The notes under the pieces are model-generated. The model searched no databases. It was given only the letters and a program-made list of their open reading frames with translations, and was not told where the DNA came from. Below, piece by piece: positions 25,648-51,564 of a stretch of DNA of 64,000 nucleotides. The first letter of the stretch is position 1, and each line of letters opens with the position of its first letter. The translations under genes and the position numbers were made by a program. Source of the stretch: an uncultured Arthrobacter sp. (GTDB taxonomy: Bacteria; Actinomycetota; Actinomycetes; Actinomycetales; Micrococcaceae); contig NZ_CANLXP010000016.1 of the NCBI RefSeq assembly GCF_947495145.1, positions 1 through 64,000 on the forward strand, in the 5' to 3' direction.

Positions 25648-26655
25648 TCAGGCGGCCGTCGACTCCCGCGCCATCACCTGGAACTGCGTCAGGATCTCTC
25701 GCGGCGCCGGGCCGGCCGGATTCTTGATGCGCTCCATGAGGACCCTGATCGCGGTCTCGGCGATTTCCTCGCGGCCGGGATTGACACTGCTGAGCGTGGG
25801 GATGGAGTAGCGGGTTTCGTCGAGGTCATCGAAGCCGATCACGGCGACATCGGACGGAATGCGCCGCCCGGCTTCCTGCAGCACACGCATGGCTCCCTGC
25901 GCCAGCGTGTCGTTGAAGCCGAACACCGCATCGAACTCGACGCCGCGGTCGAGCAGATCGTGCATCGCTTCGGCACCGTTTGCACGGTGCCAGGTACCGA
26001 CGTAGGCAACGAGGCCGTCGTCGTACGCTATGCCGCGCGCTTCCAGCGCTTCACGATAGCCCTTGAGCCGGAGTCCAGCGGAGCCGATAACCTCTCCCTC
26101 GTGGGCACCGACGACGGCGATGCGTCGCCTCCCGGTGTCCAGGAGGTGTTCGGTGGCGGCGCGGGCGCCCTCGACGTTCTGCATGGTGACGTGGTCACAG
26201 TTGCCGGAGAAAATCCGCTCGCCGAGGAGCACCATCGGAACCTCCGCGCTGACCAGTGACGCGTCCTCCTCCCCGAGTCCAAGCGGGCTGAAGAGCAACC
26301 CGTCCGACATCCGCAGGCGCGGGCTCCGAAGTACCTCAAGTTCGCGATCGCGCTCGCCGCTGGTCTGCTCGATGAGAACCACCAAGCCGCGGGCTTCCGC
26401 TGCACTGATGACGGCGTCGGCCAGTTCTGCGAAATAGGGCAGGCGTAATTGGGGAACTGCGAGCGTTATGGCGCCGGTATGCCCTGAGCGGAGGCTGCGG
26501 GCAGTGAGATTGGGACGGTAGCCCAGCTGCGCGATGGCTTTGTTCACGCGCTCCCGTGTTGCCGGCCGAACGTTTGGATGGTCGTTGATGACGTTGGACA
26601 CCGTCTTGAACGACACCCCGGCCACCTGAGCCACATCATGCAGGGTCGCCGCCAT
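25648..26655 (-). CDS. LacI-family repressor of the arabinan locus
   Basis: A 335-residue LacI/GalR regulator. Residues 1-60 form the DNA-binding domain (ATLHDVAQVAGVSFKTVSNV, then RERVNKAIAQLGYRPNLTARSLRSG with the hinge helix). The rest is a periplasmic-binding-protein-like sensor ending IGFDDLDETRYSIPTLSSV. I chose ATG 26655 because AAAGGAC precedes it; upstream in-frame codons run into a terminator hairpin. Three CAACGTTG-centred operators lie in the divergent control region at 28.3-28.5 kb and fit the palindromic core bound by LacI proteins. The inducer is probably arabinose or an arabino-oligosaccharide (inference from neighbours). Confidence 0.87.
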   Translation of the reverse strand: MAATLHDVAQVAGVSFKTVSNVINDHPNVRPATRERVNKAIAQLGYRPNLTARSLRSGHTGAITLAVPQLRLPYFAELADAVISAAEARGLVVLIEQTSGERDRELEVLRSPRLRMSDGLLFSPLGLGEEDASLVSAEVPMVLLGERIFSGNCDHVTMQNVEGARAATEHLLDTGRRRIAVVGAHEGEVIGSAGLRLKGYREALEARGIAYDDGLVAYVGTWHRANGAEAMHDLLDRGVEFDAVFGFNDTLAQGAMRVLQEAGRRIPSDVAVIGFDDLDETRYSIPTLSSVNPGREEIAETAIRVLMERIKNPAGPAPREILTQFQVMARESTAA

Positions 26656-26681: not shown

Positions 26682-26709
26682 CCGGTGGGACACGCATGTG
26701 TCCCACCGG
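26682..26709 (-). terminator. Terminator between secreted GH43 and lacI-type gene
   Basis: Perfect 12-bp arms (CCGGTGGGACAC at 26682-26693 and complement at 26698-26709) with a GCAT loop. On the minus strand it lies 50 nt after the GH43 stop and is followed by TTTC. It would separate the GH43 transcript from the repressor gene, giving high enzyme and low repressor expression. Confidence 0.75.
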
Positions 26710-26759: not shown

Positions 26760-28253
26760 CTAGCGCCGGCCTGCGCGCGGCGTCCGCACATCGACCGTCA
26801 CCGGTTCGGTGGCTGTGGATCCGTGTGCGTTGGCGAACACGGCCCGCACCAGCAGCCCGTCCTGCGCTGCCGTCAGGTTTTTCAGCGTCAGCTGTGACCG
26901 ACGCAGGTTGTCCCCGGCGTTGATGGTGCGGGGCTGGTCCCCCACCTGCTGCCAGGTGGCGCCGTCGTCCGCGGACGTCTCCCACTGCGCCACCGGGGCC
27001 GGTGTGCCCGTCGCCTCGGCGCGGAAGGTCGCCTTACCGCCGACGACGGCGGCGTCATCTTTTGGAGCCTGTGTCACCTTTGGCGGTTCAACGGTCAGGT
27101 TGAACTCGGGCCAGCCGTCGACCCAGTCGATCTTCTGGAGGCCGAGGGTGGGGAAGTAGGGGATGTCCTTGTTGGCGCCGTCGTAATAGTGGAAGGCGAG
27201 ATAGTCGCCGAAGACAGACTGACCGCCCGGCCCGGTGATGGCGCCGTGGGCGTCGAGCACCACCGTACCGCCGCCGCCGAACATGTCCCGGCCGTCCTTG
27301 TCGAGGTACGGTCCCTTGACCGACTTCGACCGGCCAACCGCGATCTTGTAGGTGGAGTCGCCGCCGCGGCAGCAGGAGTCGAAGGAGACGAAGAGGTAAT
27401 AGTAGTCGCCGTTCTTCGTGATGTACGGGGCCTCGATGGGGTTGCCCGGCATGAACCGGTCGGCAATGTTTACGGTCTGGGACTGCCAGTTCTCAACGGG
27501 TTTTCCGCTGGGCCACTCGATCGGGACCAGGAAGATGCCGTACCAGAAGGAGCCGATCGCCATGTATGGTTTGCCGTCCTCGCCCTCGACAATGCCGGCG
27601 TCGATTGCGTTGAACGTTTTGCCCGGGTTGTTCGGATCTAGGCCGGTTGCGGGCGAGGAGACCACCAGGCCCTGGTCGACCCATTCATAGTCGGGATCCT
27701 CGGGATCGAGGGTGGTGTTGGTGGCGAGTGCGGTCAGGGAATTGTTTCCGCCGAACCGGGAGGCGGAGTAGTACAGGTAAAACGTGCCGTCGTTCTCGTA
27801 GATCTCGGGTGCCCAGAGGTTGCCGGGAAGCTCTCCGTCGGAGAAGTGCTTATCGATCCAGGCGGGAATCCGGTCCCAGACCGTGCCGGTGTACTCCCAC
27901 GTGGTGCCTTCGTCAGAAGAGGACCAGATCTGGATGGTTCCGCCGTTTTCCCTGTTGACCAGGCCGGTGGAGTAGACGTACCAGGTACCGTCGTCGTCGA
28001 TGATGAGGGCGGGGTCGTGGATGGGGGAGGTCTGGCCCACCACGGTCTTGCCGCCGGGAAGGTCTTCCGTGAACGGTCTGCCCTGGCCGGTCCACGTTTG
28101 GGAAGAGTTCTGGCTGTTGTCGGCCGCCACTGCCGGAGCAGTGGCGGTGCCGGTGAAGATCAGCCCGACGCTTATGCCGATGGCTGCTGTTGCTTTGGTG
28201 AAAACTGCTGTTGCTTTGGTAAGGCGCTGGCTTTGCGGTGATCGTGACGCCAT
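26760..28253 (-). CDS. Secreted GH43 endo-arabinanase with C-terminal Ig-like domain
   Basis: A 497-residue secreted enzyme. A signal peptide (residues 1-44, ending PAVAA) leads into a GH43 five-bladed propeller. The catalytic trio is visible: D80 in SPIHDPALI (base), D218 in FNAIDAGIV (pKa modulator), E274 in PIEAPYI (acid). GNLWAPEIYENDGTFYLYYSAS and SFDSCCRGGDSTYKIAVGRS resemble arabinan endo-1,5-alpha-arabinosidases. Residues about 395-490 form an Ig-like domain (VVGGKATFRAEATGTPAPVAQWETS). AAAGGA precedes ATG 28253. It should cut plant arabinan outside the cell. It is transcribed from a promoter facing away from the transporter operon and overlapped by an operator. Confidence 0.88.
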   Translation of the reverse strand: MASRSPQSQRLTKATAVFTKATAAIGISVGLIFTGTATAPAVAADNSQNSSQTWTGQGRPFTEDLPGGKTVVGQTSPIHDPALIIDDDGTWYVYSTGLVNRENGGTIQIWSSSDEGTTWEYTGTVWDRIPAWIDKHFSDGELPGNLWAPEIYENDGTFYLYYSASRFGGNNSLTALATNTTLDPEDPDYEWVDQGLVVSSPATGLDPNNPGKTFNAIDAGIVEGEDGKPYMAIGSFWYGIFLVPIEWPSGKPVENWQSQTVNIADRFMPGNPIEAPYITKNGDYYYLFVSFDSCCRGGDSTYKIAVGRSKSVKGPYLDKDGRDMFGGGGTVVLDAHGAITGPGGQSVFGDYLAFHYYDGANKDIPYFPTLGLQKIDWVDGWPEFNLTVEPPKVTQAPKDDAAVVGGKATFRAEATGTPAPVAQWETSADDGATWQQVGDQPRTINAGDNLRRSQLTLKNLTAAQDGLLVRAVFANAHGSTATEPVTVDVRTPRAGRR

Positions 28254-28289
28254 TATCACGGTCCTTTCGTTCAGGGATGCGCTGCAAAA

Positions 28290-28303
28290 TTACAACGTTG
28301 CAA
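28290..28303. promoter_or_regulatory. LacI-type operator O1 (GH43 side)
   Basis: TTACAACGTTGCAA, a near-perfect palindrome around CAACGTTG (28293-28300). It lies directly downstream of the predicted -10 box of the leftward GH43 promoter. Two more copies lie at 28514-28539 on the transporter side. The spacing suggests a repressor bound here would cover the transcription start. Confidence 0.82.
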
Positions 28304-28331
28304 ATATTGCAGAGGTTCTCTGTAGCGTCAA
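28303..28331 (-). promoter_or_regulatory. Leftward promoter of the secreted GH43 gene
   Basis: On the minus strand, TTGACG (+ strand 28326-28331), 17-nt spacer, then AATATT (28303-28308). The -35 is one base from consensus and the spacer is ideal. Operator O1 begins where the -10 box ends. Confidence 0.65.
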
Positions 28332-28480
28332 GGGTGGATGCGTTCTGATAGCGGTTCGGCCGGGCGTTAGCGGTTAAACGGTGTCATTAGGCATGAGTGC
28401 TATCACCCAGCGGAAACGTATCGCGGTCCCGGTCGCGCGGGGCCTCCGGCATCCCCAGTCGGAAACTTTCGCGGAGACTG

Positions 28481-28510
28481 TTGACGGTTGGATGTGATCT
28501 ATGCCATTCT
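28481..28510 (+). promoter_or_regulatory. Rightward promoter of the arabinan transporter operon
   Basis: TTGACG at 28481-28486, 18-nt spacer, CATTCT at 28505-28510. The -10 is weak but the -35 matches the leftward promoter. Operators O2 and O3 follow immediately, mirroring the arrangement on the other side of this control region. About 94 nt of leader separate it from the binding-protein start. Confidence 0.5.
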
Positions 28511-28513
28511 CGT

Positions 28514-28539
28514 TTTCAACGTTGTAATCAACGTTGTAA
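28514..28539. promoter_or_regulatory. Tandem LacI-type operators O2 and O3
   Basis: Two overlapping copies of the operator: TTTCAACGTTGTAA (28514-28527) and AATCAACGTTGTAA (28526-28539), with CAACGTTG cores 12 bp apart. Together with O1 they define a consensus TTNCAACGTTGYAA. Twelve bases is about one helical turn, so two repressor dimers would sit on nearly the same face but very close; cooperative or mutually exclusive binding are both possible. Confidence 0.82.
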
Positions 28540-28603
28540 CTCCGGCCTCGCTACCAGGATGAACTGGTGTGCCGCCCCACCCTCTAACCGGAAGGACCAC
28601 GTG

Positions 28604-29944
28604 ATGATGAAGTCACGTACCATCACCAAGACCATCGCCGCAGCAGCGGCGGCAAGCTTCCTGCTCAGCGGATGTGCCGCCGCTGCCGGCGGAGGCGAAG
28701 ACGGCGACAATACCCTCACCTTCATGTACCGCGGCGGGCCTGATGACAAGAAGGCCTACGAACAGGCAGTCGCGCAGTTCGAGGAGGACAACGGGGTCGA
28801 GGTCGAAATGATCCAGACCACCGCAGACCAGTACAGCACCAAGCTCAAGGCGGCCATCTCCGGCCGGCAGATTCCCGACGTGTTCTACATCAGCCCCGGC
28901 GAGGTCCAGGCCTATGTGCAGAACGGCATCATCAAGGACATCACCGAGTACGTTGAGGGCTCCGAGAACATCGACCTGGACAACATCTGGGACTACGGCG
29001 TAGACAGCTACCGCTTCGACGGAGAGCTCAGCGGCCAAGGCGCAATTTATGCGCTCCCCAAGGACGTTGGGCCGTTCTCCTTCGGCTACAACAAGACGAT
29101 GTTCGAGGAAGCTGGGGTGCCGCTGCCGGATCCTGAGAAGCCATACACCCTCGAAGAATTCGTCGACGTAGCGAAGCAGCTGACCAAGGATAACAACGGT
29201 GACGGAAAGCTCGACCAATGGGGCACCGGCCTCAACGTCACCTGGAACCTTCCGGCTTTTGTCTGGTCCAACGGGGGGTCGTGGCTCAACGAAGACCGCA
29301 CCCAGGTAACCATCGATACACCGGAATTCACTGAGGCGCTGCAGTGGTTCGCCGACCTGCAGAACGAACACAAAGTCACGCCATCTGCCGGCGAAGCACA
29401 GACTTTGGACACGTATCAGCGATGGATGAAGGGCGAGATCGGCTTCTTCCCAGTCGGGCCCTGGGATCTGGCCACCTATGAGGACCTGCCGTTCGAATAT
29501 GACCTGATTCCCTACCCCGTCGGTGCTACCGGCGAGACCGCAACCTATACCGGCACGCTGGGGATTGCCGTCTCCAACTCCTCGGCACTCCCGGAGGAAG
29601 CGGCGAAGCTCGCAACCTATTTCTCCGCCAATGAGGAAGCACAGCAGACCCTCACTGACGCCGGAGTCCAGATCCCGAACCTCGAGGACATGGCTGAGGA
29701 ATGGGCAAGTGACGATAGCACCAAGCCCGCCAACAAGGGGGAGTTCCTCCAGATTGTCCGCGACTACGGCCGCCCGCTGCCAAGCGAGCTCACGTACAAC
29801 GCCGAGTGGTATGACGAATTCTTCACCAACATCCAGCCGGTGCTGGACGGCGAGAAGACTGCGGCCGAATACGTGAAGGAAGCGCAGCCCAAGATGCAGC
29901 AGTTCCTTGACTCGGCGAACCAGCAGGCAGGCATCGGCGGCTAG
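28604..29944 (+). CDS. Arabino-oligosaccharide-binding lipoprotein (ABC)
   Basis: A 446-residue family 1 solute-binding protein. ATG 28604 (and a second ATG at 28607) follows GAAGGA at 28591-28596. A basic head, an Ala-rich hydrophobic stretch and lipobox LLSGC mark a lipoprotein. The mature protein starts [20 protein letters not shown] and has hinge text [23 protein letters not shown] typical of oligosaccharide-binding proteins. The next genes are two permeases and four arabinan-active glycosidases, so arabino-oligosaccharides are the probable ligand; that is inferred from context. Transcription starts at a promoter flanked by two LacI-type operators. Confidence 0.88.
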
Positions 29945-30068: not shown

Positions 30069-30968
30069 ATGTCCACCACCGCGCGCCGATCCCGGCTCCA
30101 CCGGCAGGAACACCTGACTGCGCTGGCGTTCGTTGCCCTGCCGGTCATCGGGTTCCTGCTGTTCACCCTCTATCCGATGCTGTTCTCCGTCTACGCCTCG
30201 TTCACTAACTGGAACGGGTTGACCGCCCCTGTCTTCAGCGGCTTCGACAACTACATCGCCATGGTGCAGGACCCGTACTTCCTGGAGTCCATGTACAACA
30301 CGTTCTTCCTGATGCTCGGGATTCCGATCGGGCTGGTGATCTCCCTGGCTCTGGCGTTGGCCATGAACCGGAAGATGCGCGGCTCTACCTTCTTCCGCAC
30401 CATCTACTACGTCCCCGTGATCTCCTCGATCGCGGCGGTGGCCATCCTGTGGCAGTGGGCCTTCAACGGCGACTTCGGTCTCATTAACCAGATCCTGGCG
30501 CTCGTCGGCATCGACGGCCCCAACTGGCTGCAGGACACCGCAACCGTGAAACCGGCCTTGATCATCATGGCGATCTGGAAGGGCCTCGGCTTCTCGATGC
30601 TGCTCTACCTGGCCGCTCTGCAGTCAGTGCCGCGCCACCTCTATGAGGCAGCGGCCCTTGACGGCGCCGGAGCCTGGAAGCAGTTCCGCCACATCACCGT
30701 CCCAATGGTCCGCCCCGTCACCTTCTTCCTCGTGGTCACGAGCGTCATCGGCGGGTCACAGGTCTTCGTGGAAATCAACATCATGACCCCGACCGGCGGT
30801 CCCGAGTTCTCCTCCGCCACCATCGTTTGGTACATCTGGCAAAAGGCCTTCGACAACCTGCAGATGGGTTACGCATCCGCCATGTCGATCGTGCTCGGCC
30901 TCATGGTGTTCCTTATTACCTTCATCCAGTTCCGGCTCAACCGCCGCAACCAGTTCTCGATTGACTGA
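30069..30968 (+). CDS. ABC permease, MalF type (arabinan locus)
   Basis: A 299-residue permease with six helices and the EAA loop YEAAALDGAGAWKQFRHITVP near residues 194-214. I chose ATG 30069 because GAGGAT precedes it and the hydrophilic head plus first helix follow directly. It lies 124 nt after the binding protein and 12 nt before the second permease. No ATPase gene is in the operon, as in many actinobacterial sugar importers that use a shared MsiK-type subunit. Confidence 0.88.
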   Translation: MSTTARRSRLHRQEHLTALAFVALPVIGFLLFTLYPMLFSVYASFTNWNGLTAPVFSGFDNYIAMVQDPYFLESMYNTFFLMLGIPIGLVISLALALAMNRKMRGSTFFRTIYYVPVISSIAAVAILWQWAFNGDFGLINQILALVGIDGPNWLQDTATVKPALIIMAIWKGLGFSMLLYLAALQSVPRHLYEAAALDGAGAWKQFRHITVPMVRPVTFFLVVTSVIGGSQVFVEINIMTPTGGPEFSSATIVWYIWQKAFDNLQMGYASAMSIVLGLMVFLITFIQFRLNRRNQFSID

Positions 30969-30979
30969 GGCAGGTCACC

Positions 30980-31933
30980 ATGTCCTCCCAACGCGTCCTT
31001 CCATCTCCGCCGCCGCTCAAGCCCGAGCGGAATCTCCCGGACCGGACATCATCCCGCGCAGCTTCACACACCAAGACACGCACCAGGCCGTCAAACTCTG
31101 AGCGGAAGCACCGCCTCGGCAACCTCATCGTGACCATCGTGCTCTCGCTGGGAGCCGTCGTGATGGTTGCTCCGCTGCTCTGGACGTTCTCGACATCGCT
31201 GAAGACCCGTGAAGGGGTCTTCGCCCTTCCGCCCCAGTGGATCCCCGACCCGTTTGTCTGGGAGAACTATCTCCGGATCTGGTCCGCCGGACCGCTGCTC
31301 ACGGGCATTCAGAACAGCCTCATCGTCGCGTGCACCGTCACGATCGTCGGGACGCTTTTCTCCGCCCTGGCAGCCTTTGCCTTCGCGAAGATGCGGATGC
31401 CGTTCAAGAACGTGGTCTTCCTGAGCCTGCTCGCAGCGCTCATGGTGCCGTTCCCCACCCTGATGATTCCGCAATTCACCATGTTCGCCTCGATCGGCTG
31501 GGTGGACACCCTGCTTCCGCTGATCGTGCCGTTCATCTTCGGCAACATCATCATGATTTTCTTCCTTCGCCAGTACCTCAATTCAGTGCCGGATTCGATC
31601 ATCGAAGCGGCCCGGATCGATGGTGCCTCGTTCCTGCAGATCTTCTTCCGTCTGATCTTCCCGATCATCAAGCCGGCGATTGCCGCGCAGTTCATCCTGT
31701 GGTTCATGGCCGTCTGGAATGACTATCTGGCGCCGATCATCTACCTGAATTCGCCGGAGGTGCAGACACTGCAGCTGGTCATCGCGAACTTCAACGCCCA
31801 GTACGCGATTCAGACCGACTACCCGCTCATCATGGCGGCGTCATTTGTCGCGCTGCTGCCGGTGCTGATCGTGTTCATCGTGTTCCAGCGGCAGATCATC
31901 GAATCCATCGCCCTGACCGGTTCGAAGGGCTGA
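30980..31933 (+). CDS. ABC permease, MalG type (arabinan locus)
   Basis: A 317-residue permease. An unusually long basic, Pro/Ser/Arg-rich cytoplasmic tail (about residues 1-45) precedes six helices. The EAA loop is IEAARIDGASFLQIFFRLIFP. CAGGTCACC precedes ATG 30980. It pairs with the permease 12 nt upstream. The following gene, a GH43 enzyme without signal peptide, starts 4 nt after its stop, tying import directly to intracellular hydrolysis. Confidence 0.88.
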   Translation: MSSQRVLPSPPPLKPERNLPDRTSSRAASHTKTRTRPSNSERKHRLGNLIVTIVLSLGAVVMVAPLLWTFSTSLKTREGVFALPPQWIPDPFVWENYLRIWSAGPLLTGIQNSLIVACTVTIVGTLFSALAAFAFAKMRMPFKNVVFLSLLAALMVPFPTLMIPQFTMFASIGWVDTLLPLIVPFIFGNIIMIFFLRQYLNSVPDSIIEAARIDGASFLQIFFRLIFPIIKPAIAAQFILWFMAVWNDYLAPIIYLNSPEVQTLQLVIANFNAQYAIQTDYPLIMAASFVALLPVLIVFIVFQRQIIESIALTGSKG

Positions 31934-31936
31934 CCA

Positions 31937-33277
31937 GTGGCGCTCGTGAACAGCCTGCAACCGGTTCCGACCGGCCGACCGGAAGCCTGGGGCGCCCGCC
32001 ACGCGCACGATCCGACGGTGGTAAGGGACGACGACGGCACCTACTACATGTTCTCGACCGACGCGGTAGCCAACTCAAGGGAGGTTCCCGCGGGAGTGCA
32101 TGTGCGCACGTCCGCCGACCTGGTCGAGTGGACCTACGTGGGCACTGCGCTGGACGGCGTGCCTGCTGAAGCCCGCGAATGGAGCGGTGCCCGTGGCCTC
32201 TGGGCGCCGGAGGTGGTCCGCTGGCCTGCGTCTGCGGGGGAGACCCGATGGCACATGTATTATTCGGCGTCCACCTTCGGCTCCAGCACGTCGGCCATTG
32301 GCCTTGCGGTGGCGGGCAGCCCCGCCGGCCCGTGGGAGGATCGCGGGATCGTGGTCCGGACGCTCGCAGGCAGGGATACGCAGAACGCCATCGACGCGGC
32401 CGTCACCTTTGACCGGCACGGTGATCCCTGGCTCACCTATGGCTCCTTCTTCGCAGGCATCCATACGCTGCGACTGAATACGGAGACCGGCAAAGCGCTG
32501 ACCGACGGAGACCTCGGCACCTGCATTGCCCGCCGGCATCCGGACGTCGACCGCGCCATTGAGGGTGCTTTCATCCACTACCGCGCGGAGGATGACCGCT
32601 ACGTCCTCTTCGTTTCGTATGACTCGCTGTTCAGCACCTACAACGTGCGCGTTGCGGTCGCCGAGGAGATCACCGGCCCCTTCAAGGACGTGAACGGCGC
32701 CGAAATGACGGACGTCGACACCGAGCCGCACAGCGTGGGCACCAAGATCCTGGGCAGCTATCGGTTCGACGGCGACACCGCCTGGCTGGCGCCGGGCCAC
32801 AACTCAATCCTCACTGTGCCGTCCGGCGAGAGAAACGTGGAGGAGCAGTTCATGGTGCACCACGTCCGCTTCGCCGAAGACCCTACCCAGCACCTGGTTC
32901 AGCTTCGGCGGGTCTTCACCACGGCGAATGGCTGGCCGATCGTCTCGCCGCAGCCTTACGCCGGACCGGACCGTGAAACGCTTCCCGCACCTGAAGGGAT
33001 CAGCGGTCCGTGGCGCGTACTGCGCTTTGCTCCGGAATCCACCGATCTGGTCGAAGCCCAGTCCGTGACCGTGCACGACGACGGCGGCGTCACCTCTGCC
33101 GGTGAACCACGCCGGGTCCGGCTCGCCGTCGCCGGATCCGATGAAGATGCGGGGCTCGATGCTGTGTTGGATGCTGTGGTGTTCGGCTCCTGGGACGCCT
33201 CACGCAACCGCGCTGCGCTGTCTTTCAGCGGCATCGACGAGCACGGCGTGGTCTATTCCGGGACCCAGGGGGCATGA
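31937..33277 (+). CDS. Cytoplasmic GH43 arabinosidase
   Basis: A 446-residue GH43 enzyme with no signal peptide, so it should act inside the cell on imported arabino-oligosaccharides. Catalytic positions are D25 (RHAHDPTVV), D153 (QNAIDAAV) and E209 (RAIEGAFIHY). GLWAPEVVRW and MYYSASTFGSSTSAIGLAV match the propeller blades of arabinanase-type GH43. A C-terminal beta-sandwich of about 120 residues (from about 320) follows the propeller. Start is GTG 31937, 4 nt after the permease stop. It differs from the two exported GH43 proteins of this locus in having EGAF where they have EAPY at the catalytic acid. Confidence 0.85.
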   Translation: MALVNSLQPVPTGRPEAWGARHAHDPTVVRDDDGTYYMFSTDAVANSREVPAGVHVRTSADLVEWTYVGTALDGVPAEAREWSGARGLWAPEVVRWPASAGETRWHMYYSASTFGSSTSAIGLAVAGSPAGPWEDRGIVVRTLAGRDTQNAIDAAVTFDRHGDPWLTYGSFFAGIHTLRLNTETGKALTDGDLGTCIARRHPDVDRAIEGAFIHYRAEDDRYVLFVSYDSLFSTYNVRVAVAEEITGPFKDVNGAEMTDVDTEPHSVGTKILGSYRFDGDTAWLAPGHNSILTVPSGERNVEEQFMVHHVRFAEDPTQHLVQLRRVFTTANGWPIVSPQPYAGPDRETLPAPEGISGPWRVLRFAPESTDLVEAQSVTVHDDGGVTSAGEPRRVRLAVAGSDEDAGLDAVLDAVVFGSWDASRNRAALSFSGIDEHGVVYSGTQGA

Positions 33278-33278
33278 A

Positions 33279-33968
33279 ATGAGCACCGACACCCCGGGCT
33301 GGGCGGGCCGTCTCATGGACTGGCTGCGCTTTGTCATGCAGCTGGTGCTCCTGAATCTCCTGTTCCTCGCCGGGACGTTGGCCGGACTCGGCATCTTCGG
33401 GATCTTCCCGAGCGCGGTGGCTACCACTGTGCTGCTAGCACGCCTCCGCGCCGGCGACTCCGGCGACCGGCTGATTCAGGACTTCGTCACCGCCTACCGT
33501 GCCCAGTTCATCCACGCGAACAAAGTCGGCAGCCTGTTCGCCCTTGCCGGTCTGCTGGCGGTCCTCAACCTTGCAGCAATCCCGGGCGCCGCGCCGGGTC
33601 CGCAACTGGCACTCAGTGCGCTCGCCGTCGTCGTCTCGGTGGGGCTGGCAGTGTCGGCGGGTGCCGCCGTCGTAATTTGCTCCCGCCACCGGGATTCAGT
33701 GCTGGGCACCTGGCGATACGCACTGGTGCTTCCGCTCGCCTCGCCGGCAATGGCTCTCGCCTGGCTGGTATCGGTCGCAGGTATTGCGGTGCTCCTCAGC
33801 GGTGTCAACGCCCTGCTGCCGCTGGTCGGAGCTTCGCTGCCGTTGCTCGTATCCGGACTCGTCATCGGTCATCGGTTGGATCACCTTTCGCAGGACCGAA
33901 TCCAGAATGACGACGACGGTGCCCGGCGACATTCCCATTCCGGGAGGCCGCGCCAGCTCACCGCCTGA
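33279..33968 (+). CDS. DUF624 (YesL-like) membrane protein
   Basis: A 229-residue protein with five to six hydrophobic helices and the DUF624 opening (LMDWLRFVMQLVLLNLLFLAGTLAGLGIFGIFPS). ATG 33279 is one base after the stop of the GH43 gene. The tail is hydrophilic (QNDDDGARRHSHSGRPRQ). DUF624 genes are regularly found in plant-polysaccharide ABC operons (for example yesL in the Bacillus pectin cluster), but their function is not known; a transport accessory role is usually assumed. Confidence 0.78.
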   Translation: MSTDTPGWAGRLMDWLRFVMQLVLLNLLFLAGTLAGLGIFGIFPSAVATTVLLARLRAGDSGDRLIQDFVTAYRAQFIHANKVGSLFALAGLLAVLNLAAIPGAAPGPQLALSALAVVVSVGLAVSAGAAVVICSRHRDSVLGTWRYALVLPLASPAMALAWLVSVAGIAVLLSGVNALLPLVGASLPLLVSGLVIGHRLDHLSQDRIQNDDDGARRHSHSGRPRQLTA

Positions 33969-34039: not shown

Positions 34040-35605
34040 GTGACCACCACCACGCCCGACTCGACGGCGGCCACGACACCCGCCGAAGGCAGCGACCTTC
34101 CCGTGCAAGCCCCGACAACCATCCGTGTTGATCGGTCCGCAGTTGTCGCGCCGGTCAGCCGCCGGATCTTCGGCTCCTTCGTTGAGCACCTGGGCCGCTG
34201 TGTCTACGACGGCATCTACGAGCCCGGACACCCGACTGCGAACGAGGACGGCTTCCGCATGGACGTCGTCGAACTGGTCCGCGAGCTCGGCTCGACGACC
34301 ATCCGCTATCCCGGGGGCAACTTCGTGTCCGGCTACCGCTGGGAAGACGGTGTCGGCCCCCGCGATGAGCGTCCCGTGCGCCGTGACCTGGCTTGGCACT
34401 CCATCGAGACCAACCAGGTTGGCCTTGAGGAATTTGCCCGCTGGTGCAAGCTCACCGACTCCGAGCTGATGATGGCCGTCAACCTCGGCACCCGCGGTAT
34501 CGAGGCGGCGCTGGACCTGCTCGAGTACGCGAACCACCCGTCCGGCACGGCGCTGAGTGATCAGCGCATCGCGAACGGCGCGAAGGACCCCTACAACATC
34601 CGCATGTGGTGCCTTGGCAACGAGATGGACGGACCCTGGCAGATCGGCCACATGTCCGCTGAGGACTACGGCAAGATCGCCGCCCGCACAGCTTCCGCGA
34701 TGAAGACGGCGGACAAGGACCTTGAGCTGGTTGTCTGCGGCTCCTCCGGCTCCTCCATGCCGACCTTCGGTGAGTGGGAGCGGGTGGTCCTCGAGCAGAG
34801 CTACGACTACGTCGATTACATCTCCTGCCACGCCTACTACCAGGAACGCAACGGCGATCTCGGCTCCTACCTCGCTTCCTCGCTGGACATGCAGTACTTC
34901 ATTGAGACCGTGGTGGCCACGGCGGACCACGTCAAGCACAAGCTCAAGAAGCAGAAGACCATCAAGCTTTCCTTTGACGAGTGGAACATCTGGTACCTGG
35001 ACGAGCACCAGGCATCGGACGAGGTCAATGATGAGTGGCGGGCAGCGCCCCGCCAGCTCGAGGACACCTACTCCATGGCTGACGCAGTGGTCTTCGGCAA
35101 CCTGCTGATCACCCTGCTGAAGAACCATGATCGCGTCGCCTCCGCTTCGCTGGCACAGCTGGTGAACGTGATCGCCCCGATCATGACCGAGCCCGGTGGC
35201 GACACCTGGCGCCAGACCACCTTCTTCCCTTTCTCCGTGACTTCCCGGCTGGCGAAGGGAGAGGTCCTGCGCCCGCAGATCAACGCCGGCACCTACTCCA
35301 CGAAGGTCTACGGCGACGCGCCATTGGTCGACGCGGTTGCCACGGTCGACGCCGGCAAGGCGGCACTGTTCCTCGTCAACCGCAGCCAGACCGACGCAAT
35401 CGACGTGTCGATCGATGTGAAGGATCTGGCCGCGAGCGTGATCACGGAAGCGGTCACGCTGCATGATGAGGACGTCTACGCCAAGAACACCCTCGAGAAC
35501 CAGAACCGGGTGGGCCTCAAGGACCTGCAGGGCGCCGTCCTCGACGACGGCATCCTCACCGTCACTCTGCCGCCGGTTTCCTGGTCAGCGATTGCGCTCG
35601 GCTAA
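34040..35605 (+). CDS. abfA: GH51 alpha-L-arabinofuranosidase
   Basis: A 521-residue intracellular GH51 enzyme that removes alpha-1,2/1,3/1,5-linked arabinofuranose. The acid/base is E195 in WCLGNEMDGPWQ and the nucleophile E314 in LSFDEWNIWYL. IFGSFVEHLGRCVYDGIYEP and RYPGGNFVSGYRWEDGVGP are hallmark GH51 text. The C-terminal beta-sandwich is complete and the length is normal. No signal peptide. Start is GTG 34040 after AAGGAA; the 71-nt gap before it is the only sizeable break in this operon. Its stop overlaps the start of the lipoprotein GH43 by one base. Confidence 0.93.
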   Translation: MTTTTPDSTAATTPAEGSDLPVQAPTTIRVDRSAVVAPVSRRIFGSFVEHLGRCVYDGIYEPGHPTANEDGFRMDVVELVRELGSTTIRYPGGNFVSGYRWEDGVGPRDERPVRRDLAWHSIETNQVGLEEFARWCKLTDSELMMAVNLGTRGIEAALDLLEYANHPSGTALSDQRIANGAKDPYNIRMWCLGNEMDGPWQIGHMSAEDYGKIAARTASAMKTADKDLELVVCGSSGSSMPTFGEWERVVLEQSYDYVDYISCHAYYQERNGDLGSYLASSLDMQYFIETVVATADHVKHKLKKQKTIKLSFDEWNIWYLDEHQASDEVNDEWRAAPRQLEDTYSMADAVVFGNLLITLLKNHDRVASASLAQLVNVIAPIMTEPGGDTWRQTTFFPFSVTSRLAKGEVLRPQINAGTYSTKVYGDAPLVDAVATVDAGKAALFLVNRSQTDAIDVSIDVKDLAASVITEAVTLHDEDVYAKNTLENQNRVGLKDLQGAVLDDGILTVTLPPVSWSAIALG

Positions 35606-36597
35606 TGTACCGTCGCGCAACAGCCTGGTCCGCCGTCCTGGTCACCCTGGTGATCGCGACGGCGGGCTGTGCCGCGATTCCGGCAGGGGAGCGGGAGTTG
35701 AGCGGCGACTACTTCACCCATGACCCGGCGCTAGTCTCAGGTTCCGCGGGTGAGGACTGGTTCGTCTACTCCACCGGCGACGGGCAGGTTGCGGACGGCA
35801 ACATCCAGGTCCGCCGCTCCGACGACGGCGAGCACTGGGAGTACGCGGGCGAGGTATGGCAGGAGAAACCGGACTGGCTTGCGGAGGCTGTTCCCGGCGT
35901 CGACAATCTGTGGGCTCCGGAGCTCTATGAGCATGCAGGCACCTGGTACCTCTACTACTCGGCATCGACTTTCGGGAGCAACGAGTCGGTGATCGGGCTC
36001 GCGACGAACACCACCCTCGACCCTGAGGATCCTGACTATCAGTGGGTGGACCAGGGTGAAGTGATCTCCTCGGCGGGGGAAAACTTCAATGCGATTGACC
36101 CCGGCATTGTGGAAGATGCGGACGGCACACCGTGGATGAGCTTCGGCTCGTTTTGGGGAGGCCTGCAACTGGTCGAACTCCAGTGGCCCTCGGGGCTGCC
36201 CGCGGACCCGGCAGCCGAGCCTGTAACCATCGCCGACCGGGGTACGCCGCCGAACGCTATCGAGGCGCCGTACCTGATTGAGCGCGACGGCTACTTCTAC
36301 CTTTTTGTCTCGAAGGACTTCTGCTGCCAGGGCCTGGACAGCACCTACAACATAGCCGTAGGTCGGTCGGAGAATATCGAAGGCCCCTATGTGGACCGTG
36401 ACGGCGTTCCCATGCTCGACGACGGCGGCACACCCTTGCTGGCGAGCGATGGCCCTCGTGTGGGGCCGGGCGGGCAGTCCGTATCCAAGGACATACTGGC
36501 CTTTCACTACTACGATGAAACACTCGACGGCGCGTTCCGGCTCGGTCTGGTTCCCCTCAACTGGAACGACGGCTGGCCCACAGCGCGCTGGGATTAG
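35605..36597 (+). CDS. GH43 arabinanase lipoprotein
   Basis: A 330-residue cell-surface GH43 enzyme. The signal peptide ends in lipobox ATAGC (C22), so it is membrane anchored. Catalytic residues are D40 (FTHDPALV), D165 (NFNAIDPGIV) and E220 (NAIEAPYLIE). SKDFCCQGLDSTYNIAVGRS closely parallels the secreted GH43 at 26.8-28.3 kb, so the two are paralogues, this one lacking the Ig-like domain. It would trim arabinan at the surface next to the importer. ATG 35605 overlaps the GH51 stop (TAATG). Confidence 0.88.
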   Translation: MYRRATAWSAVLVTLVIATAGCAAIPAGERELSGDYFTHDPALVSGSAGEDWFVYSTGDGQVADGNIQVRRSDDGEHWEYAGEVWQEKPDWLAEAVPGVDNLWAPELYEHAGTWYLYYSASTFGSNESVIGLATNTTLDPEDPDYQWVDQGEVISSAGENFNAIDPGIVEDADGTPWMSFGSFWGGLQLVELQWPSGLPADPAAEPVTIADRGTPPNAIEAPYLIERDGYFYLFVSKDFCCQGLDSTYNIAVGRSENIEGPYVDRDGVPMLDDGGTPLLASDGPRVGPGGQSVSKDILAFHYYDETLDGAFRLGLVPLNWNDGWPTARWD

Positions 36598-36606
36598 GAA
36601 GCACTC

Positions 36607-38766
36607 ATGGAATCCCGAACCGCCACCGTTACGCCCGCAGCACCGCGTTCCCCGGAACGCCTGACGCTGAAGCCCCTGGGCTTCGACGCTGTAACTTTCA
36701 ATCCTGCCGGGATGCTCGGTGGCTGGCAGGAGATCAACCGCAACGCGAGCCTGCGCCACTGCATCGAGCAGTTGGAGGTATCCGGTGCGCTGCCGAATAT
36801 GCGGGCCGCTGCGGAGCCAAAGGAGGCAGCGTCGTCGTACACCTTTGCTGGCTTCCACTTTGCCGATTCCGACATCTACAAAGTGCTGGAGGCCCTCGGT
36901 TGGGAAGCCGGCCGCAGCGATGTCTCGGAGTTTTTGCCGTTTGTGGACGGGACAGTGGATTTGCTTGCCCGCGCGCAGCAGGAGAGCGGCTACCTCAACT
37001 CCTTCTACGCCGCAGCGCCGGACCGGCAGTTCGCCGATTTGCGGTGGGGGCACGAGCTGTACTGTCTCGGTCATTTACTGCAGGCCGGCATCGCCTGGGC
37101 CCGAACGAGCGGCCGGACCGACCTGCTGGACATCGGCATCCGCTTCGCCGAACTGGTGGAGCGCACCTTCCCGCCCGGCGGCCGTCCGCCGGTCTGCGGA
37201 CACCCGGAGATCGAGACCGCCCTCGTGGAGCTGTACCGGCACACCGGCGAGACCCGCTGGCTGGAGCTCGCGCGGCGCATGGTCGATGCCCGCGGTCACC
37301 GGAGCGTCGGCGAAGATCGGTTCGGCTACCAGTACTTCCAGGACCATCTGCCGGTGCGCGACGTCCCCGGGGCTACCGGGCATGTGGTGCGTCAGCTGTA
37401 CCTGACGGCCGGGGTCGCGGATCTGTACACCGAGGACGGCGACGAGGACCTGCTCGAAGCTTTGAAGCGCATCTGGTCCGACGTGCACTCCCGCAAGATG
37501 TACATCACCGGTGGCCTCGGTTCCCGGCATCGCGACGAAGCGTTTGGAGACCCTTTCGAGCTGCCGCCGGACCGCGCCTACTCGGAAACCTGCGCGGCAA
37601 TCTCCAGCCTCCAGTTCAACTGGCGGATGCTGCTGATCACCGGTGAGGCGAAGTACGCGGACGAGCTCGAGCGCGCCCTGTACAACGCCGTTGCGGGGTC
37701 CACCTCACCGGCGGGAACTGAATACTTCTACTCCAACCCGCTGCAGGTCCGCACCGAGCGCGACGGCGAACACGAGCAGGCGCCCGCCCGGCGCGCACCC
37801 TGGTACGACTGTGCCTGCTGTCCGCCGAACCTTGCCCGCCTGCTTTCGTCGCTTCACTCCTATGCCGCGACCACCGACGACGACGGCGGCCTTCACCTGC
37901 ATCTCTATGAGCCCGGCGACATCCGGCTTCCGCAGGCGTCCGTGACCGTAGCGACGGGATACCCGTTCGACGGCCGGATCAAGCTCGAGGTTGCGGGCGA
38001 TCTGCCGTGGTTGTCGCTGCGGGTTCCCGGATGGGCAAGCTCTTACGAGCTATCCGTGAACGGTGTGGAAGAGCAGGTGGAGCCTGTGGACGGCTACCTG
38101 CGACTTGCCGACGTTGGCCCCGGGACGATTGAGCTGGTGCTGGACATGCCCGCACGGCTTCGGGCGCCGCACCCGCATATCGACGCCGTCCGAGGCTGTC
38201 TCGCGGTGACGAGAGGGCCGATCGTGTACGCGCTGGAACAGACCGACTTGCCCGCCGACGTCGTAATCGAGGATGTGCTGCTCGATCCATTAAGCCAGCC
38301 CGTCGTGACTGCTTCGGAACCGCTAGTTTCGGGCGACATCAGTGTTCCGAAGGTGAGCATCTCTGCGGCGGTCAGGCCGCCGTCGTCGTCGGAGCCTTAT
38401 CCCCTTGCGGGAGAGCCGGCGGCGGGCGGGGGAAGCACTTTCACCGTGGACCTCGTTCCGTACTTCCGCTGGGGCAACCGCGGCTCAGGCGGCATGCGCG
38501 TCTGGATTCCGACGATCCCTCAAGGGGTGGTGCGCACCCGCTCCGGATGGCAGGCTGGGGCAATGTCATTCAGCAAGGGAACCAAGGTCACCTGGAACAC
38601 GTCGCAGGGCAAGACGCACGGCAAGGTCGTGGAGAAGAAGGACAAGGAGTTCACCTTCGACGGCCAGAAGTTCAACGCGTCGAAGGATGAGCCCTACTAC
38701 ATCGTCGAGAGCGAGAAGTCGGGCAAGCAGGCGGCGCACAAGGAAAGCGCGCTCGACGAACAGTAG
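36607..38766 (+). CDS. GH127 beta-L-arabinofuranosidase fused in frame to DUF2945
   Basis: One uninterrupted 719-codon frame. Residues 18-635 are a GH127 enzyme. Its metal-thiolate site matches the known HypBA1 layout: E327 and C329 in SETC, C404/C405 in DCACCPPN, and acid/base candidate E311 sixteen residues before E327, the same spacing as in HypBA1. The GH127 part ends at RWGNRGSGGMRVWIP-type text. After a 16-residue joint, residues 653-719 (from base 38563) are a DUF2945/HVA1 Tudor-like protein (FSKGTKVTWNTSQGKTHGKV), normally an independent gene of about 67 residues. Either the GH127 stop was lost or two proteins are translated, with ATG 38563 as a second start. No signal peptide. Confidence 0.85.
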   Translation: MESRTATVTPAAPRSPERLTLKPLGFDAVTFNPAGMLGGWQEINRNASLRHCIEQLEVSGALPNMRAAAEPKEAASSYTFAGFHFADSDIYKVLEALGWEAGRSDVSEFLPFVDGTVDLLARAQQESGYLNSFYAAAPDRQFADLRWGHELYCLGHLLQAGIAWARTSGRTDLLDIGIRFAELVERTFPPGGRPPVCGHPEIETALVELYRHTGETRWLELARRMVDARGHRSVGEDRFGYQYFQDHLPVRDVPGATGHVVRQLYLTAGVADLYTEDGDEDLLEALKRIWSDVHSRKMYITGGLGSRHRDEAFGDPFELPPDRAYSETCAAISSLQFNWRMLLITGEAKYADELERALYNAVAGSTSPAGTEYFYSNPLQVRTERDGEHEQAPARRAPWYDCACCPPNLARLLSSLHSYAATTDDDGGLHLHLYEPGDIRLPQASVTVATGYPFDGRIKLEVAGDLPWLSLRVPGWASSYELSVNGVEEQVEPVDGYLRLADVGPGTIELVLDMPARLRAPHPHIDAVRGCLAVTRGPIVYALEQTDLPADVVIEDVLLDPLSQPVVTASEPLVSGDISVPKVSISAAVRPPSSSEPYPLAGEPAAGGGSTFTVDLVPYFRWGNRGSGGMRVWIPTIPQGVVRTRSGWQAGAMSFSKGTKVTWNTSQGKTHGKVVEKKDKEFTFDGQKFNASKDEPYYIVESEKSGKQAAHKESALDEQ

Positions 38767-49143: not shown

Positions 49144-51564
49144 ATGGCAGGCGTGAGCGCACCAAACATCACCCGTCCCACCATTTTCGAGCAACTCGCT
49201 GAGGAACTCGGCGTCCAGCAGTGGCAGATCAAGGCAGCCGTAGAACTTCTCGACGGCGGATCGACGGTCCCCTTCATCGCCCGGTACCGCAAGGAAGTCA
49301 CCGGAACACTGGACGACGCCCAGCTGCGTGAGCTGGAAGAGCGGCTGCGCTATCTGCGGGAACTCGAGGACCGGCGCGCGGCTGTGCTTGAGGCGATCGA
49401 AGCGCAGGGCAAGCTTACCAATGAACTCCGTGCCGCCGTCGTCGGTGCGATCACCAAAGCGCGGCTGGAAGATATCTACCTGCCCTTCAAAACGAAGCGG
49501 CGCACCAAAGCGCAGATCGCGCGTGAAGCCGGGCTGGAACCGCTCGCAGATGGCCTGCTCGGCAACCCCTCCCTCGATCCCGCGGTTGAGGCCGGCCGCT
49601 ACCTGAACGACGCCGTTCCCACAGCCGAAGACGCCCTGGCAGGTGCCCGTGCATTGCTCGTGGAGCGGGCGGGTCAGGACGCTGACCTGCTCGCCGACCT
49701 GCGGGAACGGTTCTGGAAACAGGGACGGTTGCGCTCGCAGGTGATTGCCGGCAAGGAAGCCGAGGGCCAGAAGTTCTCCGATTACTTCGACTTTGTGCAG
49801 GCGCCGTCGGCCATGCCGTCGCACCGCGTGCTGGCGCTGCTGCGCGGTGAGAAGGAGGGAGTGCTGCAGCTGACGCTCACGGAGGCTGACACAGCTGACG
49901 CCGAAGCCGCCTTGCGCGCCCGGAGACGTTTCGAGAACTCCGTGGCCGCGTTCCTCGGCGTCGCGGAACAGGGTCGGCCGGCGGACGCGTGGCTCATGGC
50001 CAGCGTCCAGCAGGCGTGGCGCAGGCTGCTCGCGAAGCTCTCGATCGATCTGCGTGTGCGGCTCTTCGTGGAGGCGGAAACCGAGGCGGTGCGGGTCTTC
50101 GCTGCCAATCTGCGTGATGTGCTGCTCGCGGCGCCTGCGGGCAGCCGCACCACCATCGGTCTGGACCCGGGGCTGCGGACCGGCGTGAAGGTTGCCGTGG
50201 TTGATGGAACCGGGAAGGTACTCGAAACGGCGACCATCTATCCGCACGCACCGGCGAAGAAGTGGGATGACGCGCTCACAACGCTATCGCGCATGGTGGC
50301 CAGTCACGACGTCGAACTCATCGCGATCGGCAACGGCACTGCGTCGCGGGAGACTGACAAGCTTGCGTCCGAGCTGATCACGCTGATGTCCGGGCACGCC
50401 CTGCAGAAGCTGGTCGTTTCCGAAGCCGGTGCCTCGGTGTATTCGGCGTCGGCGCTGGCGTCAGCTGAACTGCCGGAGCTTGATGTGTCGCTGCGCGGTG
50501 CGGTGTCCATTGCCCGGCGCCTTCAGGATCCGTTGGCGGAGCTGGTGAAGATTGACCCGAAGTCGATCGGCGTGGGCCAGTACCAGCACGACGTGAGCCC
50601 GGCGAAGCTCGAACGGTCGCTGGACGCCGTGATCGAGGACTGCGTGAATGCGGTGGGTGTCGACGTGAATACCGCGTCGCCGTCGCTGCTGACCCGGGTG
50701 GCCGGCGTTGGTTCGCTGCTGAGCGGGAACATTGTTGCGCACCGGGATGCGAATGGTCCCTTTGCCCGCCGGAGTGACCTGCTGAAGGTGCCGAGGCTCG
50801 GCGCGAAGGCCTTCGAGCAGTGTGCAGGCTTCCTGCGGATTCCCGGCGGACCTGAGCCGCTGGACGCTTCCAGCGTGCACCCGGAGGCGTATTCCGTGGC
50901 GCGGCGAATGGTGAACGACGCCGGCGGCTCACTTCGGTCGCTGAGCCTAACTGAGTATGTTGACGAGACCTTCGGTTTGCCTACCCTGCAGGACATACTC
51001 GCAGAACTCGAGAAGCCGGGGCGTGATCCGCGTCCGGCCTTTGTGACCGCCGCGTTTGCCGACGTCGAGAAGATCTCTGATCTGCGTCCCGGCATGGTTA
51101 TTGACGGCGTAGTGACCAACGTTGCTGCTTTTGGCGCCTTCGTAGACGTTGGGGTGCATCAGGACGGACTGGTTCACGTCTCAGCCATGGCAGACCGCTT
51201 CGTGAGCGATCCGCACGAGATTGTGAAATCCGGCCAGGTCGTCAAGGTCAGGGTGCTGGAGGCTGATCCGGACCGGAAGCGGATTTCGCTCACCCTGCGA
51301 TTGAACGACGACGCAGTATCACGTGGCGGGAAGTCCGCGCGTGAGGCGCGGGGCGGGGGAGGGGAGGACCACCGTCGTCGTCCGTCCGGTGGGCAGGGTA
51401 ACAACCCAGCGAAGGGTGGCGGTTCAAAGCCGGGGTCCAACTCCAAGCCGGGGCCCAGCTCCAGGTCGGGCGCGGGAAAGCAGGGCGGCAAGCCAGCTCA
51501 GGCTCCGGCCAACAGCGCCATGGCAGAGGCGCTTCGCGCTGCGGGGTTGGCGCCAAAGGATTAA
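49144..51564 (+). CDS. tex: Tex-family S1 RNA-binding protein
   Basis: An 806-residue Tex (YhgF) protein. Order: N-terminal helical region, YqgF/RNase H-like domain from about residue 335 (TTIGLDPGLRTGVKVAVVD), helix-hairpin-helix regions (VGVDVNTASPSLLTRVAGVG, GPFARRSDLLKVPRLG), and an S1 domain at about 645-715 (RPGMVIDGVVTNVAAFGAFV). The tail after the S1 domain is a long basic Gly/Ser/Arg/Pro-rich extension (about 720-795) typical of actinobacterial orthologues. Tex binds nucleic acids and affects transcription. It ends just before a strong bidirectional terminator shared with the convergent rpf-like gene. Confidence 0.95.
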   Translation: MAGVSAPNITRPTIFEQLAEELGVQQWQIKAAVELLDGGSTVPFIARYRKEVTGTLDDAQLRELEERLRYLRELEDRRAAVLEAIEAQGKLTNELRAAVVGAITKARLEDIYLPFKTKRRTKAQIAREAGLEPLADGLLGNPSLDPAVEAGRYLNDAVPTAEDALAGARALLVERAGQDADLLADLRERFWKQGRLRSQVIAGKEAEGQKFSDYFDFVQAPSAMPSHRVLALLRGEKEGVLQLTLTEADTADAEAALRARRRFENSVAAFLGVAEQGRPADAWLMASVQQAWRRLLAKLSIDLRVRLFVEAETEAVRVFAANLRDVLLAAPAGSRTTIGLDPGLRTGVKVAVVDGTGKVLETATIYPHAPAKKWDDALTTLSRMVASHDVELIAIGNGTASRETDKLASELITLMSGHALQKLVVSEAGASVYSASALASAELPELDVSLRGAVSIARRLQDPLAELVKIDPKSIGVGQYQHDVSPAKLERSLDAVIEDCVNAVGVDVNTASPSLLTRVAGVGSLLSGNIVAHRDANGPFARRSDLLKVPRLGAKAFEQCAGFLRIPGGPEPLDASSVHPEAYSVARRMVNDAGGSLRSLSLTEYVDETFGLPTLQDILAELEKPGRDPRPAFVTAAFADVEKISDLRPGMVIDGVVTNVAAFGAFVDVGVHQDGLVHVSAMADRFVSDPHEIVKSGQVVKVRVLEADPDRKRISLTLRLNDDAVSRGGKSAREARGGGGEDHRRRPSGGQGNNPAKGGGSKPGSNSKPGPSSRSGAGKQGGKPAQAPANSAMAEALRAAGLAPKD

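Follow-up and report, generated by a model that had tools for sequence, protein, structure and literature searches.

Predicted operators of a LacI-type repressor, including an overlapping doublet, between divergent arabinan genes of an uncultured Arthrobacter sp.

Three palindromes with the common core CAACGTTG (28290-28303, 28514-28527 and 28526-28539; O1, O2 and O3, respectively) were found between divergent arabinan genes in the window, which here means the whole 64,000-nucleotide stretch of DNA that was analysed. Judged from sequence, they very probably serve as operators for the LacI-type protein encoded at 25648-26655. We consider it highly likely that this protein jointly represses two divergent promoters and is released by an arabinan-derived sugar, a reading in which binding, repression, inducer, read-through and occupancy of the doublet are predicted. 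The unusual part is the 12-bp overlap of O2 and O3, which the preliminary description of this DNA had overlooked.

Genes, promoters and palindromes of the locus

The genes of the locus were as follows.
25648..26655, minus strand: LacI-family repressor, 335 aa from ATG (PF00356 and PF13377; helix-turn-helix VSFKTVSNVIN; GTG at 26706, further upstream, also open)
26760..28253, minus strand: GH43, AbnA-like by similarity, with a signal-like N-terminus (by eye), leftward first gene (PF04616, E 7e-36; NF053747, 212 bits, cut-off of 480 not reached)
28607..29944, plus strand: ABC sugar-binding protein (SBP), lipoprotein-like by eye, first gene of the rightward operon (PF01547, PF13416)
30069..30968, plus strand: ABC permease 1 (PF00528)
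30980..31933, plus strand: ABC permease 2 (PF00528)
31937..33277, plus strand: GH43, no evident signal by eye (PF04616; NCBIfam matches under cut-off)
33279..33968, plus strand: DUF624 membrane protein (PF04854)
34040..35605, plus strand: GH51 alpha-L-arabinofuranosidase ArfA (PF06964; NF051901, 694 bits, over the cut-off of 625)
35605..36597, plus strand: GH43, lipoprotein-like by eye (PF04616; NF053747, 278 bits, under cut-off)
36607..38766, plus strand: GH127-like enzyme with a C-terminal Tudor-like domain (PF07944, PF11160)

The GH43 proteins resemble arabinan endo-arabinosidases, yet they scored under the NCBIfam cut-offs. The C-terminal domain of the GH127-like enzyme (Hva1_TUDOR, residues 658-716) is an unexpected fusion. 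Downstream of the GH43 gene (26760-28253), and in the same orientation, the repressor gene follows after 104 bp that contain no CAACGTTG core; the leftward promoter therefore probably makes the repressor as well, and O1 would probably mediate negative autoregulation by read-through from GH43. Autoregulation is reported for 72% of LacI-family regulators in the accessible part of a survey of that family (PMC4052901).

The following promoter elements and predicted operators were identified in the spacer.
28290..28303, no strand: operator O1 (predicted), TTACAACGTTGCAA; core unchanged in the 4-genome alignment; 1 bp overlap with the leftward -10
28303..28308, minus strand: leftward -10 AATATT (promoter scan; region conserved in the alignment)
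28326..28331, minus strand: leftward -35 TTGACG (promoter scan; CGTCAA unchanged in 4/4 aligned genomes)
28481..28486, plus strand: rightward -35 TTGACG (unchanged in 4/4 aligned genomes)
28493..28508, plus strand: conserved spacer element TGTGATCTATGYCATT (crp-like half-site; 4/4 aligned genomes; one exact copy in its own genome)
28505..28510, plus strand: candidate -10 of the rightward promoter, CATTCT, TG-extended (weak, by eye; 18-bp spacer; absent from the scanner list)
28514..28527, no strand: operator O2 (predicted), TTTCAACGTTGTAA (sequence and alignment)
28526..28539, no strand: operator O3 (predicted), AATCAACGTTGTAA; the T usual at -6 is missing from its inner half-site; in 5/5 close genomes the doublet has the linker TAAT

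The palindromes stand where they had been placed in the preliminary description, and their number is far beyond chance: three copies of CAACGTTG were observed in 344 bp, compared with 0.0053 expected by a first-order Markov count (P ~2e-8). The centre-to-centre distance was 224 bp for O1-O2 and 12 bp for O2-O3, the latter two having 2 bp in common, and O3 was two positions off the consensus given by the earlier reader. In the own genome (3.55 Mb), five of the eight strand-wise matches to CAACGTTGNAA were accounted for by these three sites. A fourth CAACGTTG core occurs within the window at 51117, outside the arabinan locus.

The leftward promoter proposed earlier, TTGACG-17-AATATT (28331 to 28303), was recovered with a scan score of 9/12 and a TG ahead of the -10, and O1 does adjoin this -10, overlapping it by 1 bp. 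The rightward promoter was borne out in part: TTGACG is present and conserved in 4/4 genomes, but the best -10 (CATTCT) is weak and was absent from the scanner list. O2 starts 3 bp past this proposed -10. The expected start sites are covered by operators at both promoters, which is the usual repressor geometry. When the window was aligned with three related loci (L138, L130, L132), the operator cores, the -35 boxes and the stretch ahead of the SBP start were fixed, and the middle of the spacer varied in length and sequence.

In the proposed mechanism, the LacI-type protein (25648-26655) would bind palindromes of the TTRCAACGTTGYAA type over the start regions of both divergent promoters and repress both by promoter occlusion until an arabinan-derived sugar frees it. 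One dimer at O1 would shut off GH43 and probably also, through loss of read-through, the repressor gene, and the O2/O3 doublet would shut off the ABC-importer/arabinosidase operon. At the doublet, either two dimers may be unable to use all half-sites, with one inner headpiece disengaged, or one dimer may bind in two registers with an extra half-site nearby.

The regulon looks local. Genome-wide, the palindrome at up to 2 mismatches was not in excess (11 forward matches vs. 14 in the reversed control), and a genome-wide regulon was discarded as a candidate; a one-mismatch site on contig C2 and a core on contig C23 of the own genome (G000) lie inside long open frames. The suggested spread to other arabinose genes was not supported, the 10 kb around araA (L302) being without a site at 12/14 or better. 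Nor was input from CRP/GlxR established: the crp-like 16-mer TGTGANNTANNTCACA was not enriched (2 vs. 2 in the control), but the spacer element TGTGATCTATGYCATT, at up to 3 mismatches on both strands of the own genome, gave 14 matches vs. 3 in the control.

Repressor relatives, conservation of the divergent pair and operator spacing

The protein contains the LacI helix-turn-helix and the periplasmic-binding-like core of the LacI/GalR family (PF00356, 68.2 bits; PF13377, 111.1 bits; each above its cut-off), and its closest solved chain was 4kmr_A (E 2e-83). Even palindromic sites with a central CG, as in LacI/GalR operators, were found at or near LacI genes (CAAC-GTTG sites). Around repressor relatives, 80 loci were fetched (the best 80 of 304). 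In this set CAACGTTG was ~8-fold enriched, with 72 copies compared with 8.7 expected (first-order Markov), and occurred in 50/80 loci; the exact core was missing from the fetched stretch in 30/80. Eight other 8-mer palindromes outranked CAACGTTG by ratio, six of them with 1-5 copies and the others, ATGATCAT and ATCATGAT, with 42 and 41, respectively. Many cores lie 17-175 bp upstream of the LacI gene, and others are upstream of the SBP gene or the next operon; 28 single sites were found no more than 200 bp ahead of LacI genes with 55% identity or more. The recognition segment VS[FIV]KTVSNV was present in 114/115 LacI sequences. Several genomes depart from the full arrangement: no core was found in 8 kb of G034 (LacI 94%), a stretch that also lacks GH43 and SBP, or in 11 kb of G007 (LacI 71%); G028 has one core ahead of its LacI gene and only fragments matching GH43; and G003, G009 and G024 have one core each, near the LacI gene.

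For conservation of the divergent pair, the SBP was searched in ten genomes behind fetched loci (10/10 matched) and in 395 genomes of the family (15 matched). Three loci were shared between both searches, leaving 22 distinct genomes, 17 of them with a divergent GH43 in the fetched stretch. In every one of these 17, a core stands beside each of the two genes flanking the GH43/SBP spacer. A further genome (G023) shares the three cores, but that locus gave no GH43 match; its GH43 with an O1-like core was found on a separate contig piece (L133). Among the remaining four without a divergent GH43, two (L327, L330) have a single core and two (L328, L329) a pair 19 bp apart.

That one repressor serves both the GH43 gene and the import/hydrolysis operon, as the preliminary description had it, remains the best reading, given the two-sided cores in 17/17 genomes and a motif that tracks the repressor; the binding itself is predicted. 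The genome encodes at least two further LacI proteins (37 and 40% identity), and the sites might be read by one of these while the local repressor reads something else. We regard this as highly improbable, because across genera the motif tracks relatives of the local repressor and because the 40% paralogue (G000:C8) has a palindrome of its own, TTCCATCGATGTAA, twice, 37 bp apart and just after its gene. These identical copies, at positions 3623 and 3660 of the fetched locus L305 of contig C8, are probably the paralogous LacI's own operators.

The DNA looping between O1 and O2 that had been put forward fared less well. A repression loop, in which one repressor tetramer bridges O1 and O2/O3, would fit the cores on both sides in 17/17 genomes with a divergent GH43, the distance of 121-122 bp in seven of one set of ten sister genomes, and the fall of 8/9 distinct distances at 0.33-0.67 of a 10.5-bp turn. 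However, the O1-O2 distances differ: among the five closest genomes they were 224, 325, 214, 132 and 157 bp, and thirteen sisters have 120-162 bp. The close five (132-325 bp) show neither conserved nor in-phase spacing; by arithmetic, two of their distances approach a whole turn and the other three lie at about 0.3-0.6. The C-terminal tail of LacI is tetramerising. The local match to E. coli LacI ended at residue 309/360, beyond which LacI has 51 residues and the query 24, and PurR was matched to 329/340; thus no counterpart of the tetramerising tail is evident, and in this sequence comparison the protein ends like PurR, not LacI. No loop is needed, moreover, where two operators serve two promoters, and we judge the bridging tetramer very unlikely. 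The O1-O2 phases lay mostly near half-integral turns (nine distinct distances, R 0.59), a weak tendency among related genomes with exceptions at 325 and 157 bp, near a whole turn.

The overlapping doublet and loss of inner half-sites

The O2/O3 doublet, at 12 bp and with the linker TAAT, was present in 5/5 genomes of the window's clade, and the same promoter in 13 sister genomes has a single operator, TTACAACGTTGCAA. For the spacing of such pairs we relied on a sample of 396 genomes of the order, scanned for two exact cores 9-39 bp apart. Pairs were found in 40 genomes (52 pairs; reversed-pattern control, 20 in total), 13 of them at 13 bp, 5 at 12 bp and 4 at 14 bp, with the others spread; those at 21 bp and partly those at 36 bp are repeats within single genomes. 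A count of 13/52 pairs at one of 31 spacings has P ~8e-9 under even spacing, a value that kinship among the genomes makes optimistic. The doublet is therefore an overlapping pair of the ~13-bp kind conserved upstream of a sugar operon, at 12 bp in 5/5 genomes here and with a peak at 13 bp in the order.

Arabinan context was defined as LacI at 47% identity or more, GH51 at 50% or more, or SBP at 58% or more. All 13 of the 13-bp pairs were near arabinan-gene homologues, compared with 9 of 27 other pair loci fetched, under a looser rule. Among the 12-bp pairs of the order sample, arabinan context was found in the window and G004 and not in G303, G173 and G238. Two other samples, of 398 and 221 genomes, are dominated by near-copies, and their pair counts were not used as independent support. 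The former (family sample f19) held 45 forward pairs, 12 at 13 bp and 12 at 12 bp; 7/12 of its 13-bp pairs were in one genus, whose fetched example (L262) was without arabinan context, and the one 12-bp pair looked at (L271) had GH51 present. Of the 59 forward pairs in the latter, 41 had the 13-bp spacing, and 12 of these were in genus g198. In that genus a 13-bp core pair occurred in 12/13 genomes, and the fetched examples (L260, L261) were ahead of an ABC permease gene and without arabinan context under the looser rule; a different repressor that shares this architecture may be involved there. On the repressor tree, for which a long-branch warning applies and labels count exact cores only, tight pairs were in several clades, the 13-bp label requiring at least 5 changes and the 12-bp label a single change (one clade). 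The idea that doublets never occur at the repressor's own promoter was dropped, as in L179 the LacI gene starts ~150 bp off on the other side.

We collected 67 distinct pairs, a table biased in spacing toward tight pairs, which were mainly chosen for fetching; 44 had arabinan context, and 34 of these were at 12, 13, 14 or 16 bp. In the 34 pairs, A at position 6, beyond the core, was present in 68/68 outer flanks and 49/68 inner flanks (Fisher P 9e-7, inner vs. outer), and in 56/56 flanks of the 28 single LacI-promoter sites. A half-site count was then used in place of a strict PWM partner scan, which had missed degenerate partners. Starting from 165 intact sites in 125 clusters, it asks which half of the partner is intact and favours neither side. 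Kept out of this count beforehand were L049 and L050, which come from the genomes of L138 and L133, as well as L129, L131, L133 and L134, and the loci taken to be without arabinan context (L186-L189, L191, L193, L195, L198-L204, L208, L260-L263 and L277). At 13 bp the partner had the outer half alone in 14 cases, the inner alone in none and both in 17 (both being counted from each end); the corresponding numbers were 3, 1 and 0 at 12 bp, 0, 0 and 13 at 14 bp, and 8, 3 and 29 at 14-31 bp pooled. At 12-13 bp, the degraded half of the partner was thus inner rather than outer by 17:1 (sign test P 1.4e-4; this and the Fisher P are optimistic because genomes are related). A counter-example is provided by four Cellulomonas loci (L093, L098, L099, L106), in which the outer half is altered and the inner flank lost; lacking an intact site, they do not enter the half-site count. 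In Rathayibacter, GH51 promoters (L088 at 7527, L102 at 8240) carry a 12-bp doublet in which the second site has the changed inner half CATCGTTG.

In sequence, the doublet looks like a complete operator accompanied by a single outer half-site, a form often kept in evolution. It could be asked whether only one of O2 and O3 is functional and the other a remnant, or an intermediate in the turnover of operators, as the single TTACAACGTTGCAA at that promoter in thirteen sister genomes and the imperfection of both O2 and O3 would allow. Both sites are kept, however, with identical spacing and linker in 5/5 genomes while parts of the flanks diverge, and tight pairs recur across several repressor clades with a sharp 13-bp peak; we therefore find this reading unlikely. 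If the sites were redundant, outer halves should be lost too, so that a loss almost restricted to inner halves favours, at the level of sequence, occupancy by two dimers, one inner headpiece being disengaged. A constraint imposed by the start site may contribute to the half-site pattern as well. We tentatively raise the possibility, ourselves leaning against it, that 12-13-bp doublets form a class of three-half-site operators, in which one dimer would be fully bound and a second docked by its outer headpiece, the inner headpiece being displaced.

Comparison with known systems

The doublet is of a known but unexplained kind. In the accessible part of the LacI-family survey, spacings of site pairs peak at 13, 22 and 32 bp, and ~13-bp overlapping sites stand before 110 operons (Ravcheev et al., 2014, PMC4052901). 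A ~13-bp pair is described there as conserved at E. coli gntKU (GntR), with tetramer binding difficult to reconcile with structures and no settled structural explanation (PMC4052901, citing Tsunedomi 2003 on gntKU). Upstream of gntK in E. coli K-12, ATGTTACCGATAACAGTTACCCGTAACAT can be read as a pair of sites with a 13-bp spacing. Compared by eye, the outer halves of this pair agree at 7/8 positions and each inner half is two positions off ATGTTACC, which matches the inner-loss pattern; the 16-bp gntK sites overlap by 3 bp, so that some inner loss is forced. Like the GntR/gntKU-type pairs as presented in that part of the survey, in which a central CG is usual, the present doublet consists of two central-CG palindromes 12-13 bp apart at the promoter of a sugar operon. 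It differs from them in repressor clade and motif and in its spacing of 12 bp, not 13, and the loss of inner and outer half-sites was counted here.

By gene content, the locus is comparable to those of bifidobacterial AauR, AbfR and BauR, which, according to the accessible text of Arzamasov et al. (2018, PMC5928203), control arabino-oligosaccharide regulons: these are local LacI-family repressors of GH43/GH51 arabinosidases and an ABC importer, often with the regulator's own gene included. They belong to Bifidobacteriaceae, however, and are likened here by gene content, not by orthology or motif. AraQ of Arthrobacter arilaitensis and bifidobacteria is also a LacI-family, arabinose-related and actinobacterial regulator (PMC5928203, PMC6882875, in their accessible parts), but it controls araBDA, whereas the araA region here is without a site, and the segment bound by bifidobacterial AraQ contains a different sequence, CATTGTGAGC (PMC6882875, accessible part). 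E. coli CytR, as described in the accessible part of PMC3454398, is a LacI-family protein whose half-sites occur as direct or widely spaced repeats; it uses weak half-sites together with CRP, in contrast to the strong contiguous palindromes found here, where a CRP site is not established. Other actinobacterial LacI motifs are presented in the accessible part of PMC3377646. A literature search, with most subscription papers outside its scope, found no paper naming the CAACGTTG motif or the inner half-site asymmetry. Added here to the known kind are the clade, the 12-bp form, the single-site sister genomes and the inner half-site bias.

As a regulon the system is ordinary, and its value is as a natural experiment on how LacI-family dimers use operators ~13 bp apart. 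The overlap of O2 and O3 is so tight that their joint use by two repressors is hard to picture. In sister genomes the same promoter pair carries either one perfect operator or a doublet, and the asymmetry predicts which mutations hurt. If the three-half-site class is true, the inner half-site would be free to decay, and the response of the doublet to repressor level or inducer would differ from that of the single operator in the sisters.
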